From NCBI GenBank assembly GCA_016180645.1, contig JACPAV010000006.1:1-64000 (forward strand): DNA of 64,000 nt, written 5' to 3'. Below are positions 23,919 to 28,348 of this stretch, piece after piece. Source of the stretch: Nitrospirota bacterium. Lineage in GTDB: Bacteria; JACPQY01. Within the stretch, counting starts at the first letter, position 1; each line of letters begins with the position of its first letter. Below the pieces are notes generated by a model that was not told where the DNA came from, searched no databases, and saw only the letters and a program-made list of their open reading frames with translations. The position numbers were made by a program, and so were the translations under genes.

Positions 23919-24317
23919 TCAACGCGCGCGCCGACGGGATCGGCGTGCCGCGGAACGACCGCGTGGTGCGGCCGGTGTGGACTTGGAGTCACCCTTCGAG
24001 GAGCTGGAGACTTGTTTCGCCAAACCCGTCACTTTCTTGAAAATCCCCTGCAATTCCGACGAAGTGGGCACCTTGAGTTGGCGGGTGGCCCGGCTGACGC
24101 TTTCTTGAATCTTTTTCTCGAGGACCTTCCGGTTCTTCTCTACTCGTGAGCTCACCTGCGATATGATCTTGCGGGCGTCGGTTCTGGAAAGAGAGCCCCG
24201 CCGCACGAACTGCTCGACCGTCTTTCGAACCTCCTCGGCCGAGAGAGAGAGAGCCCCCAAGGTCACAAACCAAAGTTCTTTCAAGGCCTGAGGAACCTTC
24301 TGCTTCGTTTCCGGCAT
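23919..24317 (-). CDS. Phasin-like protein with basic histone-like tail
   Basis: 132 residues. The N-terminal half (ALKELWFVTLGALSLSAEEV, then RKTVEQFVRRGSLS) matches polyhydroxyalkanoate granule-associated phasins of the PhaF/PhaI type. A long amphipathic helix follows (about 50-95), and the end is Ala/Ser/Arg-rich (GRSAARRSRRRAR), as in PhaF, which binds both granule and nucleoid. Last of three minus-strand genes with the same motif. Confidence 0.7.
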   Translation of the reverse strand: MPETKQKVPQALKELWFVTLGALSLSAEEVRKTVEQFVRRGSLSRTDARKIISQVSSRVEKNRKVLEKKIQESVSRATRQLKVPTSSELQGIFKKVTGLAKQVSSSSKGDSKSTPAAPRGRSAARRSRRRAR

Positions 24318-24340: not shown

Positions 24341-24565
24341 CTACCGCCCGAATGCTTCGAGAACCTGCTTCGGCCAGCCGCTCGCTCGCTGCGTCAGGCG
24401 AGCATGCTCTTTCTCGCCGCGCTCGATGAGCGTCTTGCGGATCTGGTCCCTACCTTCCCAGAGGGTAACATACGTCCCCAGTGCTGCCAAGTAAAACCGG
24501 TAGGCCGGCGTCTCTTCAACCGTGCCGTGAAGTACCGATGACTTGCGGATGGATTGTGTGGCCAT
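24341..24565 (-). CDS. Small phasin-motif protein
   Basis: 74 residues from ATG 24565 (MATQSIRK), fixed by GGGAGG just upstream on the minus strand; the longer frame to 24688 overlaps the neighbour. Its core, FYLAALGTYVTLWEGRDQIR followed by KTLIERGEKEHARL, aligns with FLFAPVGAYLTLRDRGTEIF in the upstream gene and LWFVTLGALSLSAEEVRKTV downstream. That makes it a third, minimal member of the same phasin-like family. Confidence 0.7.
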   Translation of the reverse strand: MATQSIRKSSVLHGTVEETPAYRFYLAALGTYVTLWEGRDQIRKTLIERGEKEHARLTQRASGWPKQVLEAFGR

Positions 24566-24629: not shown

Positions 24630-25019
24630 CTATCGTACAAGCCCCTGGATCCGCGTTCGAAGCTTCTCGACGCGGTCGCGGACTTCAAGGTTCTTCAGCG
24701 TCTCGGGGAGATTGAGATCCTCCCAGGTCTTCCGGGCACGTTGCGAGGTGCTCTCCAAGCGGATCCGGACCCACTCTGGAACTTTCAAGTCCAACCCTTC
24801 GACGCGCTCTCGCACTTTCGCGACCTCTCTCCGAATGCGCGGCTCAGCCTTCCTCCCCTTGTCGACCAACCCGGAGAAAATTTCCGTCCCGCGATCCCGA
24901 AGGGTGAGATAGGCCCCGACGGGCGCGAACAGGAAATCAGCTCCCGACTGCCGGGTGTGCGAAACCGAATGAGTCTGTTTCTCCGCATGTGCTTTCGCTG
25001 GATGCGTCTTGGCTGCCAT
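24630..25019 (-). CDS. Phasin-like coiled-coil protein
   Basis: 129 residues from ATG 25019 (MAAKTHPAKAHAEKQ), preceded by GGGGAGGA; the frame from 25091 has no ribosome site. A Lys/Ala/His-rich start, then the family segment FLFAPVGAYLTLRDRGTEIF and SGLVDKGRKAEPRI, then a long charged helix likely to form a coiled coil (REVAKVRERVEGLDL onwards). First of the three-gene phasin-like cluster, probably granule- or surface-associated. It is expressed from the 25.02-25.19 kb control region containing two TGACGC dyads. Confidence 0.68.
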   Translation of the reverse strand: MAAKTHPAKAHAEKQTHSVSHTRQSGADFLFAPVGAYLTLRDRGTEIFSGLVDKGRKAEPRIRREVAKVRERVEGLDLKVPEWVRIRLESTSQRARKTWEDLNLPETLKNLEVRDRVEKLRTRIQGLVR

Positions 25020-25076
25020 GTTCTGTCCTCCCCGATTCAATTCAAGCGACTCGAACCTTCCATATCTTTCTCTTTT

Positions 25077-25100
25077 TGACGCGTTTAACACGGTGCGTCA
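25077..25100. promoter_or_regulatory. Operator-like dyad, copy 1
   Basis: TGACGC (25077-25082), 12 bases, GCGTCA (25095-25100). The same 24-base layout recurs 40 bp away. It lies between divergent phasin-like and TonB-like genes. Confidence 0.6.
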
Positions 25101-25116
25101 TTTTTGTCAAGGGTTT

Positions 25117-25140
25117 TGACGCGGCGCGTTAGTGGCGTCA
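25117..25140. promoter_or_regulatory. Operator-like dyad, copy 2
   Basis: TGACGC (25117-25122), 12 bases, GCGTCA (25135-25140). Centre-to-centre spacing of 40 bp from copy 1, close to four helical turns, so two dimers would bind the same DNA face. The inner TGACGCGGCGCGTTA is itself a near-palindrome. Confidence 0.6.
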
Positions 25141-25192: not shown

Positions 25193-25930
25193 ATGAAACG
25201 ACGGAACATGGCATTGACCCTTCGACGCTCTTTCGTTGTTTCTCTCGGATTGCACGGCGCGTTTGCGATGGTCGTGGCTGTGGCCAGCTGGGCGGGGGCA
25301 TGGTTCCATCCGGAGGTGCGGGTTTATCGAGTCTCGCTGGTATCGGGATCCGTGCCTCGCGCGGCGGCGCCGGCGCCTTCACCGCCCTCGACTCCGGCTA
25401 ACGCTTCTGCCCCATCCTCGGTGAAGCCGAAGAAGGCTGACGCATCTCTGGCCGCGCCGCCGGGACCCAAGTATGTTGTGAAGAAGAAAAAGAATGTCAT
25501 CGCGGAGAAGAAGACCGACGGAGCAGCCCCACTTGAAGGGCACCTGCAGGAAGCGCTGGAGCGAATCCGGTCCGGCCTCCATGAAGACCCCCACCCTTCC
25601 GGGAAGGGCGGCTCCGTCTACGAATCGACGATTCAACGACTTTCCGACCTTCGGTTTAGCGCCTATTACGGGGTGCTGTGGGACTCGATCAAGCAGAATT
25701 GGTCCGTGCCGGGTCAGCTTCCCGATTGCTCGGAACTGACGGCGGACATCGGGGTGGAGATTGCCCCGGACGGCGCCGTGGCTACCCAGTGGCTGGAACG
25801 GCCTTCCAAGAACATGACCTTCAATTACGCCGCCCTCAAAGCTGTGATGAAATCGAACCCCTTCCCGGCCCCACCCCGCTCTTTCGGTCAGGGCAAACTC
25901 GCCATCGGCTTCCGGTTTATCTGCTCGTAG
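25193..25930 (+). CDS. TonB/TolA-like energy transducer
   Basis: 245 residues from ATG 25193 (MKRRNMALTL) with AAGG just upstream. One N-terminal membrane anchor (SFVVSLGLHGAFAMVVAVAS), a periplasmic Pro/Ala/Lys-rich spacer (about 55-110), a charged helical stretch and a C-terminal TonB_C/TolA-like domain (YYGVLWDSIKQNWSVP, then PNMTFNYAAL-like and PFPAPP; about 150-245). It should couple inner-membrane proton force to outer-membrane proteins. No exbB or exbD gene lies beside it. Divergent from the phasin-like genes. Confidence 0.8.
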   Translation: MKRRNMALTLRRSFVVSLGLHGAFAMVVAVASWAGAWFHPEVRVYRVSLVSGSVPRAAAPAPSPPSTPANASAPSSVKPKKADASLAAPPGPKYVVKKKKNVIAEKKTDGAAPLEGHLQEALERIRSGLHEDPHPSGKGGSVYESTIQRLSDLRFSAYYGVLWDSIKQNWSVPGQLPDCSELTADIGVEIAPDGAVATQWLERPSKNMTFNYAALKAVMKSNPFPAPPRSFGQGKLAIGFRFICS

Positions 25931-25995: not shown

Positions 25996-26232
25996 ATGAA
26001 AACTGCTGTTTCCCTGCCTGATGAACTTTTCGTTTCTGCGGAAGCCCTTGCCAAACGTCTGGGCCTCTCCCGAAGCCGCTTGATCGCCACGGCACTCGCT
26101 GATTTCATCGCGAAACACCGCGGAAGCCGCATCACGCACCAACTGGACAAAATTTACTCGCATGTGGACAGCCGTTTGGACGCTTCTTTGCGGGATCTCC
26201 AGGCTCGTTCCCTGCGGCGAGACGAGTGGTAG
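25996..26232 (+). CDS. mazE: MazE/ChpI-like ribbon-helix-helix antitoxin
   Basis: 78 residues from ATG 25996 (MKTAVSLPDELF). The N-terminal ribbon-helix-helix DNA-binding domain is plain: beta strand KTAVSLP, then SAEALAKRLGLSRSRLIATA and LADFIAKH. The C-terminal tail (DKIYSHVDSRLDASLRDLQ) is the toxin-binding part. It should repress its own promoter, which overlaps the start. Overlaps mazF by a few bases. Confidence 0.9.
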   Translation: MKTAVSLPDELFVSAEALAKRLGLSRSRLIATALADFIAKHRGSRITHQLDKIYSHVDSRLDASLRDLQARSLRRDEW

Positions 26233-26570
26233 TCGAACGTGGCGAAATCTGGTGGGCTGACCTTCCCAGTCCGGTCGGTTCCGGCCCGGGCTATCCACGC
26301 CCCGTGATTATCGTTCAGAGCGACGCCTTCAACCGAAGCCGAATTCAGACCGTCCTCGCAATGGCACTGACCTCGAACCTGGCGCTGGTGGATGCGCCCG
26401 GAAATGTGCTCATTCCCGCCGGAGCATCCGGTCTTCCAAGAGATTCCATCGCAAACGTCTCGCAGGTGCTTACCATCGACCGAGAATTGCTTGCCGAACG
26501 CGCTGGGCGCCTCCGGGGGAGTCTCCTTGATTCCGTTGACACCGGTCTTCGCCTCGTGCTTGACCTGTAG
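26226..26570 (+). CDS. mazF: MazF-type mRNA interferase
   Basis: 114 residues, GTG start overlapping the mazE stop. PemK/MazF fold: VVERGEIWWADLPSPVGSG, GYPRPVIIVQSDAFN, the IANVSQVLTIDRE loop and a C-terminal helix. The conserved arginine/serine/threonine catalytic cluster is represented. Sequence-specific endoribonuclease of a type II toxin-antitoxin pair. Confidence 0.92.
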   Translation: MVVERGEIWWADLPSPVGSGPGYPRPVIIVQSDAFNRSRIQTVLAMALTSNLALVDAPGNVLIPAGASGLPRDSIANVSQVLTIDRELLAERAGRLRGSLLDSVDTGLRLVLDL

Positions 26571-27331: not shown

Positions 27332-28348
27332 CTACTTGATTTCCTGGGCGGCGCCGAGGATGGAGGTCTTGAGAAGCGAGTCGAATTCGGACTGCACGAG
27401 GCCCCGGATTTTCACGATGGCGCGCTGACGGGCCAGATCGAACGTGTTGGAACCCTCGTCGCCCACTTTGGAGAGCGTGCCGACTGCTTCGCCAGTCGCA
27501 TTGTCCATAATCTCGATCCGCAGGCCCCACTTGGCAAACTTGGTTGGCGTGCCGCGGTCGAACTCGTTGACTTCCAGTTCGCCCTGCACCAGCAGGTCCT
27601 CTTTTTGCCCTGCCGAAACACCGCTGAATCCGATTCCGGTCAGAGCCTGATTGATCGTCTTGATCACATCGGCGAGGCCCTCGCCTTTCACGTCCACTCG
27701 GAACTTCACGTCGGCCAACGCCTTGTCGCGTTTGATCCGCGTCTCGCCGGCGCGGTAGACCACGCCCGTCCCCGTCGGACTCACCACAGCGAGCTGGCTG
27801 CTGTAGCCGTCGGCCTTCGCGAACTTCTCCCACGCGCTGTAGAGCCCCTTGGCCTTTTGCAACTTGTTCTCGGTGTTTGCCGCCTTGAGAAGTTCATCGC
27901 CTTGAAGATCCAGGTCGGTCGCCTTCTTGCGCAGGTCCGCGGCTGTCTTCTCACGATCGAGGGAGGCAAGCGCCCACACGATGTTGTCGTCCTTGTAGGT
28001 CTCCACAATTTCGACACCCTCCAGCGTCTCTTCCACTTTCACCTTCGTGGCGCTCGACGCCTCAAAGGTCTGCTGCGTAGAGGTCTTCTTGCCTGTCGTT
28101 TGCGAAGCATAGGTTTCCTTGTCCTGCTGCACCTGCTCGACCTTCGATTTGAGAATCTTGGCGATTTCCGCCCGCGCTTTGTCTTTCGCACTGCTCTCAT
28201 CGGGCGAGCTGCCGACTCCGATGAAGAACTTCTCAGGTGGGTGTTTCTTGGACGTATTTTTCTCCACCCATTCCGGCTTGGCCCAAGCCTGCCCGGCCAC
28301 CAGGGAAACGGAGACGATACCCGCGATCAGACCACGTATGCTCATCAT
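27332..28348 (-). CDS. LPP20-family exported protein
   Basis: 338 residues with a cleavable signal peptide (GIVSVSLVAGQAWA then KPEW). An LPP20 domain (about 25-125): PEWVEKN, KFFIGVGSSPDESSAKDKAR, AEIAKILKSKVEQVQQD and VWALASLDRE. It is followed by a second periplasmic domain (about 165-335) that includes a repeated small alpha-beta unit. Last of three genes (LpoB, COG3014, LPP20), a conserved envelope-lipoprotein trio. Overlaps the COG3014 gene by four bases, so coupled. Probable role in outer-membrane or peptidoglycan maintenance by association. Confidence 0.82.
   Translation of the reverse strand: MMSIRGLIAGIVSVSLVAGQAWAKPEWVEKNTSKKHPPEKFFIGVGSSPDESSAKDKARAEIAKILKSKVEQVQQDKETYASQTTGKKTSTQQTFEASSATKVKVEETLEGVEIVETYKDDNIVWALASLDREKTAADLRKKATDLDLQGDELLKAANTENKLQKAKGLYSAWEKFAKADGYSSQLAVVSPTGTGVVYRAGETRIKRDKALADVKFRVDVKGEGLADVIKTINQALTGIGFSGVSAGQKEDLLVQGELEVNEFDRGTPTKFAKWGLRIEIMDNATGEAVGTLSKVGDEGSNTFDLARQRAIVKIRGLVQSEFDSLLKTSILGAAQEIK

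Follow-up and report, generated by a model that had tools for sequence, protein, structure and literature searches.

The window analyzed here, a stretch of 64,000 nucleotides from a Nitrospirota genome (G000), raises a simple question: what binds the two TGACGC-N12-GCGTCA dyads that lie between a phasin-like and a TonB-like gene? A pattern search of the window places exact copies at 25077-25100 and 25117-25140, 40 bp from start to start, just as a preliminary description of the sequence had it. To their left, on the minus strand, a phasin-like gene of 129 aa (24630..25019, ATG at 25019; PF05597 at 1.4e-6 and TIGR01837 at 3.2e-6, the latter below its cut-off) opens a three-gene phasin-like run and is the presumed target of any operator here. 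The run continues on the same strand with a 74-aa phasin-like ORF (24341..24565), which has no Pfam match and shares 11 of 34 residues with the first phasin (E of 7e-5 in a single comparison), and a 132-aa phasin-like gene (23919..24317; PF05597 at 8.1e-11). A gene with a TonB C-terminal domain (TonB_2) diverges from the run on the plus strand (25193..25930, ATG at 25193; PF13103 at 5.3e-13), and a ribbon-helix-helix/PemK-like (MazF-type) toxin-antitoxin pair lies just 3' of it, at 25996-26570. All gene calls come from a home-made codon-score script rather than a standard gene finder.

The 24-bp dyad, taken as a unit, does not recur. Its exact form has two matches in the 4.7-Mb genome, both of them here, and none with the reversed pattern as control. 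When up to two mismatches are allowed, the window contains 6 matches where 4.2 are expected, which leaves the exact pair as the only notable signal. A scan of spacers from N0 to N30 in G000 and in G001, its one relative in the family, gave 38 matches, of which N3 accounted for 7, N12 for the 2 in the window, and the other 29 spacers together for 29. Across 59 other genomes, too, the N12 dyad shows no clear enrichment, with 14 matches against 9 for the reversed control.

What recurs is a 15-bp palindrome, TGACRC-N3-GYGTYA, that sits inside each dyad, in opposite orientation in the two. We refer to these palindromes as operator 1 (25086..25100; TAACACGGTGCGTCA on the plus strand, TGACGCACCGTGTTA on the minus strand) and operator 2 (25117..25131; TGACGCGGCGCGTTA). 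Their centers are 31 bp apart, or about three helical turns, rather than the four turns first proposed from the dyads. Scored with a position weight matrix trained without the window sites, operator 1 reaches 19.2 and operator 2 reaches 15.8; the latter is also matched by the TGACRCNNNGYGTYA pattern search. The appearance of 24-bp dyads arises from the outer words, TGACGC at 25077..25082 (plus strand, left half of dyad 1) and GCGTCA at 25135..25140 (minus strand, right half of dyad 2), which are either third half-sites 9 bp out or -35-like hexamers (TTGACG at 25076-25081 and GTGACG, respectively). The outer word at 25077 occupies the position expected of a plus-strand -35 (TTGACG, gap of 4), and the word at 25135-25140 is its mirror image.

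The preliminary description had expected a TetR or MarR dimer to bind the 24-bp dyads as such. Two perfect copies with identical geometry, unique in the genome, are what such operators might look like. Yet N12 is found nowhere else in G000 or G001, and the lack of clear enrichment in the 59 genomes agrees with this; the N3 palindrome, by contrast, recurs at orthologous promoters. Moreover, an outer half-site at -9 is seen at both window sites, at the phaR locus L071, and at L186, in which it coincides with the -35. We consider the N12 reading very unlikely.

Recurrence of the 15-bp palindrome is pronounced in both genomes. The TGACRCNNNGYGTYA pattern has 13 forward matches in G000 and 10 in G001, compared to 1 and 0 for the reversed controls, and the stricter TGACRCANTGYGTCA, with one mismatch allowed, has 13 and 8, compared to 0 and 1. 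In G000, none of the 13 non-window TGACRCNNNGYGTYA places overlaps a called gene, and all are 27-216 bp away from a start; in G001 the site is within a called gene in 3 of 10 loci. Five orthologous promoters have a site in both genomes. At L058/L077 the gene is of response-regulator/GGDEF type and is transcribed divergently from an HD-domain gene; L059/L079 have guaB, L063/L073 an M16 peptidase gene, L065/L076 a response-regulator/cyclase gene together with its kinase, and L067/L072 an SLT transglycosylase gene. At L094/L096, where acyl-CoA dehydrogenase and AAA genes diverge, both genomes have weaker paired sites. Targets in G000 alone include MaoC hydratase, porin, groES, nuoJ and DctP genes; in G001, they include an acyl-CoA thioesterase gene (L095), whose automatically called start adjoins the site. 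The expected recurrence at lipid genes was thus borne out for the 15-mer, which is found genome-wide at acyl-CoA/lipid genes and at phaR; the accompanying expectation of a raised motif frequency holds for the 15-mer and is not clearly borne out for the N12 form. The genome also has two LPP20-type genes, one in the window (27332-28348) and one at L062:4081-5475 that is preceded, at a distance of about 80 bp, by a perfect TGACACAGTGTGTCA site.

How are the operators arranged relative to the phasin-like gene? A TTGACA hexamer (25105..25110, minus strand) lies 4 nt from operator 1, which fills the spacer between this -35 and a presumed -10, TAAACG (25082..25087, minus strand, 17-nt spacer). The presumed -10 overlaps the TTA arm of operator 1 and is weak (3/6 to TATAAT), and a sigma70 promoter scan of the window listed neither it nor the phasin promoter; its position is conserved relative to L247, L252, L260 and L162. 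Read on the minus strand, the order is TTGACA-AAAA-TGACGCACCGTGTTA-AACG, and a search for TTGACA-N4-operator gives an exact match at 25086-25110, compared to 0 matches in shuffles. We looked for TTGACA ahead of 88 sites, counting both orientations. A gap of 4 nt gave 9 exact hexamers (14 with at least 5/6 positions) and a gap of 5 nt gave 2; every other gap from 0 to 24 gave at most one exact hexamer. This fixed gap means that the operator fills the promoter spacer, with its TTA arm running into the -10, as in the TTGACA-N4-TGACGCACTGTGTTATATTT of L162 and L178. Phasin and phaR promoters elsewhere share the layout. Seen from operator 1, operator 2 is located beyond the phasin -35. The original proposal of a repressor-type operator pair at the phasin promoter is thus supported; the 24-bp N12 geometry as the operator unit is not.

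Two other readings of the region were considered. A terminator scan listed dyad 1 as an intrinsic terminator on the plus strand, with a hairpin at 25077-25100 followed by TTTTTG, among 2 terminator-like sites (shuffle mean of 0.8). No plus-strand gene runs into dyad 1, however: all three ORFs on its left side are read from the minus strand. In addition, its stem is imperfectly paired, dyad 2 lacks a T-run, and elsewhere the motif lies upstream of starts. We give this explanation almost no weight. Operator control of the divergent TonB-like gene, which the preliminary description had also assumed, is possible. The sigma70 scan found no convincing promoter for this gene, and a protein scan found no counterpart of its product in G001, so the only relative does not share this exact locus. 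A scan of the phasin protein against the genome contigs also found no relative.

No regulator gene adjoins the dyads, as previously noted, and no TetR or MarR gene lies next to the motif in the window. Instead of these families, comparative evidence points to PhaR (PF07879), since the site precedes phaR in several phyla. G000 encodes two PF07879 proteins, on contigs C11 and C2, and G001 also encodes two. The C11 protein (L071), found through the Phasin model, consists of a PHB_acc_N domain (PF07879 at 4.6e-26) and a phasin-like C-terminus, in which residues 147-206 match PF05597 at 6.1e-10, over the cut-off; PF05233 (PHB_acc) was not listed at E<=0.001. About 25 bp upstream, its gene carries the site TGACACACTGCGGCA. 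Against TIGR01848 (cut-off of 109.45 bits), the C11 and C2 proteins score 89.7 and 75.4, compared to 161.5 for the alphaproteobacterial L226, which makes them members of the PHB_acc_N family and not PhaR equivalogs. Two DctP (TRAP solute-binding) genes (L071, L093) also have a site upstream; one of these genes is divergent from phaR, and this phaR-dctP neighborhood is kept in G001 (L082).

We modeled the structure of a Chloroflexota PhaR (L178:3995-4570). The N-terminal 60 residues form a beta-beta-beta-alpha-beta-alpha arrangement with pLDDT of 84-97, in a whole model with a pTM of 0.40. Foldseek found no PDB match to the PHB_acc_N model at E<=0.001, and the best 60 of 162 matches in a PDB sequence search were all weak, coiled-coil-like and aligned with the C-terminal part, with no PHB_acc_N relative among them.

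The link between motif and regulator was assessed with a matrix built from 15 typed G000/G001 sites and their reverse complements, leaving out the window sites and the L071 phaR site. Two phaR loci, L107 and L120, duplicate L082 and L071 and were excluded at the outset. Of 110 loci considered, 106 were used (L123 was too short; L124, L127 and L128 were not parsed). Within 250 bp upstream of phaR, 23/106 loci have a match scoring at least 12, compared to 13/2197 windows from other parts of these loci and 3/2120 shuffles. At a threshold of 8 the counts are 35/106, 29/2197 and 21/2120; the other 71 loci have no upstream match at this level, and the phaR promoter in G001 has a best score of -5.9. 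Most of the upstream sites that score at least 12 lie 24-76 bp before the phaR start. Site-bearing phaR genes come from Myxococcota, Chloroflexota and others, L071, L241 and L254 among them. Many strong matches elsewhere are themselves phasin promoters, often with paired sites: in Chloroflexota L160, L162, L178, L186 and L199, the phasin gene near phaR (PF05597 in 5/5) has two sites 24-26 bp apart. A PF05597 gene in L260 has paired sites 25 bp apart upstream. In two PhaR-bearing genomes in which every pattern match was inspected (G025, 14/14; G172, 11/11), sites precede phaR, phasin-like, enoyl-CoA hydratase, thiolase, acyl-CoA dehydrogenase and nuoE-like genes, and several others lie within genes; G036 has the highest count (19), known from counts alone.

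From these comparisons, we conclude that the dyad region is very probably the control region of the phasin-like operon, with two predicted operators for a PhaR-type regulator (PF07879), and that the regulator is most likely this genome's own PhaR from contig C11.

PhaR proteins at the surveyed loci fall into two types with different operator arms. Upstream of NRK-type phaR genes (KRYxNRKLYD signature), a TGAC-type site scoring at least 8 is found in 37/106 loci and the canonical PhaR site with at most one mismatch in 0/106. Upstream of NRR-type genes, the TGAC-type site is found in 0/14 and the canonical YTKNTGCRNYGCANMAR site with at most one mismatch in 5/14. We also tried the canonical motif upstream of NRK-type phaR with up to two mismatches and rejected it, as its 5/106 is near background (60/2324 windows elsewhere). 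In a FastTree tree of 120 domains, 12/14 NRR sequences fall in one clade (support of 0.80), with L127 and L128 apart, so arm type correlates with lineage, which falls short of proving that a residue sets specificity. Both G000 and G001 carry one NRK-type and one NRR-type PhaR. The NRR-type proteins (NNRRLYD) are encoded at L127:3414-4480 (contig C2 of G000) and in L128 (contig C83 of G001), both with ATGTTGCATTGCGACAA upstream, and in G000 the gene diverging from the L127 phaR is weakly Phasin_2-like (0.0065, below cut-off). It is possible that the C2-type PhaR and ATGTTGCATTGCGACAA make up a second, insulated PhaR circuit.

Could a more global regulator own these operators and control phaR and phasin genes in several phyla, with PhaR as a target and not the binder? 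The target list is broad and includes guaB, groES, nuo (nuoJ among them), c-di-GMP (response-regulator GGDEF) and cyclase genes, which one would not readily expect PhaR to control. Co-occurrence of motif and PhaR is also moderate: 44 other PhaR-bearing genomes contain 114 matches compared to 30 for the control, and 34 genomes without PhaR contain 35 compared to 19. At least five matches are found in 7/44 of the former and 0/34 of the latter (Fisher, 0.017; Mann-Whitney, 0.045), showing that the motif follows PhaR loosely across genomes. Against a global regulator, phaR autoregulation and phasin targets are the classical PhaR pair. Such a regulator would not predict that arm type tracks PhaR subfamily, NRK versus NRR, even if the NRR rows, 12/14 from one clade, are not independent. 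Finally, published PhaR cores match the motif center C-GCANTGC-G in register: YGCRNYGCR of Sinorhizobium meliloti (PMC12542648) and YTKNTGCRNYGCANMAR of Ralstonia eutropha (PMC12849132). At the window sites this center reads C-ACGGTGC-G, with A in place of G at -3, and C-GCGGCGC-G. On balance a global regulator is unlikely, and PhaR remains our preferred binder.

By analogy with studied PhaRs, we can suggest how the circuit might work. A PhaR dimer would sit on each palindrome, and occupation of operator 1 would block RNA polymerase. The near-integral helical phase of the two sites could allow cooperative binding. The phasin-like C-terminal part of PhaR may bind the surface of storage granules, releasing PhaR from DNA; titrated in this way, PhaR would let coat proteins be made only when a granule needs a coat. 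Repression, cooperativity and granule release are all inferred from these precedents.

The nature of the granule is a separate matter. Searches for PhaC_N (PF07167) and class III PhaC (TIGR01836) found no match in G000 (97% complete) or G001 (84%), and PF07167 is present in 13/46 PhaR-bearing genomes, with no match in the remaining 33/46. The granule may therefore not be PHA, though gaps in the MAGs or an unrecognized enzyme could account for the missing synthase. Two site-bearing phasin-like genes from synthase-negative genomes match the lipid-droplet protein model NF033649, well below its cut-off (L252, 5.9e-13; L247, 4e-11). We tentatively propose, as an idea with somewhat less than an even chance of being right, that an NRK-type PhaR branch with its own spacer-built operator, TGACRCANTGYGTCA, runs coat-protein/acyl-CoA regulons in Myxococcota, Chloroflexota and an uncharacterized phylum, mostly without PHA synthase. 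PhaR would then at root sense neutral-lipid or other granule surfaces, not PHA, and G000 would keep two insulated circuits, the C11 TGAC-type and the C2 TGTTGCATTGCGACA-type.

With these results a formerly orphan dyad becomes part of a named circuit that is open to testing. They also suggest an operator consensus for PhaR-type regulators outside the Proteobacteria. They raise the question of what PhaR senses in the many genomes in which no PHA synthase was found. In addition, two PhaR paralogues with apparently different operator arms in one genome offer a natural test of PhaR specificity.

Comparison with known PhaR systems places the predicted operators within a wider family. S. meliloti phaP1 and phaP2 each have two copies of the core flanking the -35 (PMC12542648); Ralstonia eutropha PhaR recognizes YTKNTGCRNYGCANMAR, shows cooperative shifts with more than one site and has a repressor role at phaP1 (PMC12849132); and the Bradyrhizobium diazoefficiens PhaR box is NGCN(3)GC[GA]N(3), PF05233 (PHB_acc) being named for alphaproteobacterial PhaR (PMC10888616). 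The B. diazoefficiens box shares the GCN3GC center and a pleiotropic regulon with our sites and has no TGAC arms. The Rhodobacter/Paracoccus site CTGCNNNGCAG has the same GC-N3-GC center and differs in flanking bases and organisms. Among the papers listed by our literature searches, none describes a TGACGC-type PhaR operator, and we make no claim that none is in print. With the PhaR/AniA operators of Alpha- and Betaproteobacteria (S. meliloti phaP1/phaP2 and R. eutropha phaP1), the sites described here have in common an odd-length palindrome centered on GCRNYGC, two or three copies around the phasin promoter, a PHB_acc_N regulator, and phaR itself as a target. Operator 2 lies beyond the phasin -35, as in S. 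meliloti with its flanking copies. The arms differ, being TGAC/GTCA with C/G at +-4 here and of T/A type (TTKNTGC) or AT-rich in S. meliloti and R. eutropha. Unlike in those species, the operator here is locked in a 17-bp spacer 4 nt from TTGACA, its targets include guaB, groES and signaling genes, and its candidate regulator falls below the TIGR01848 cut-off.
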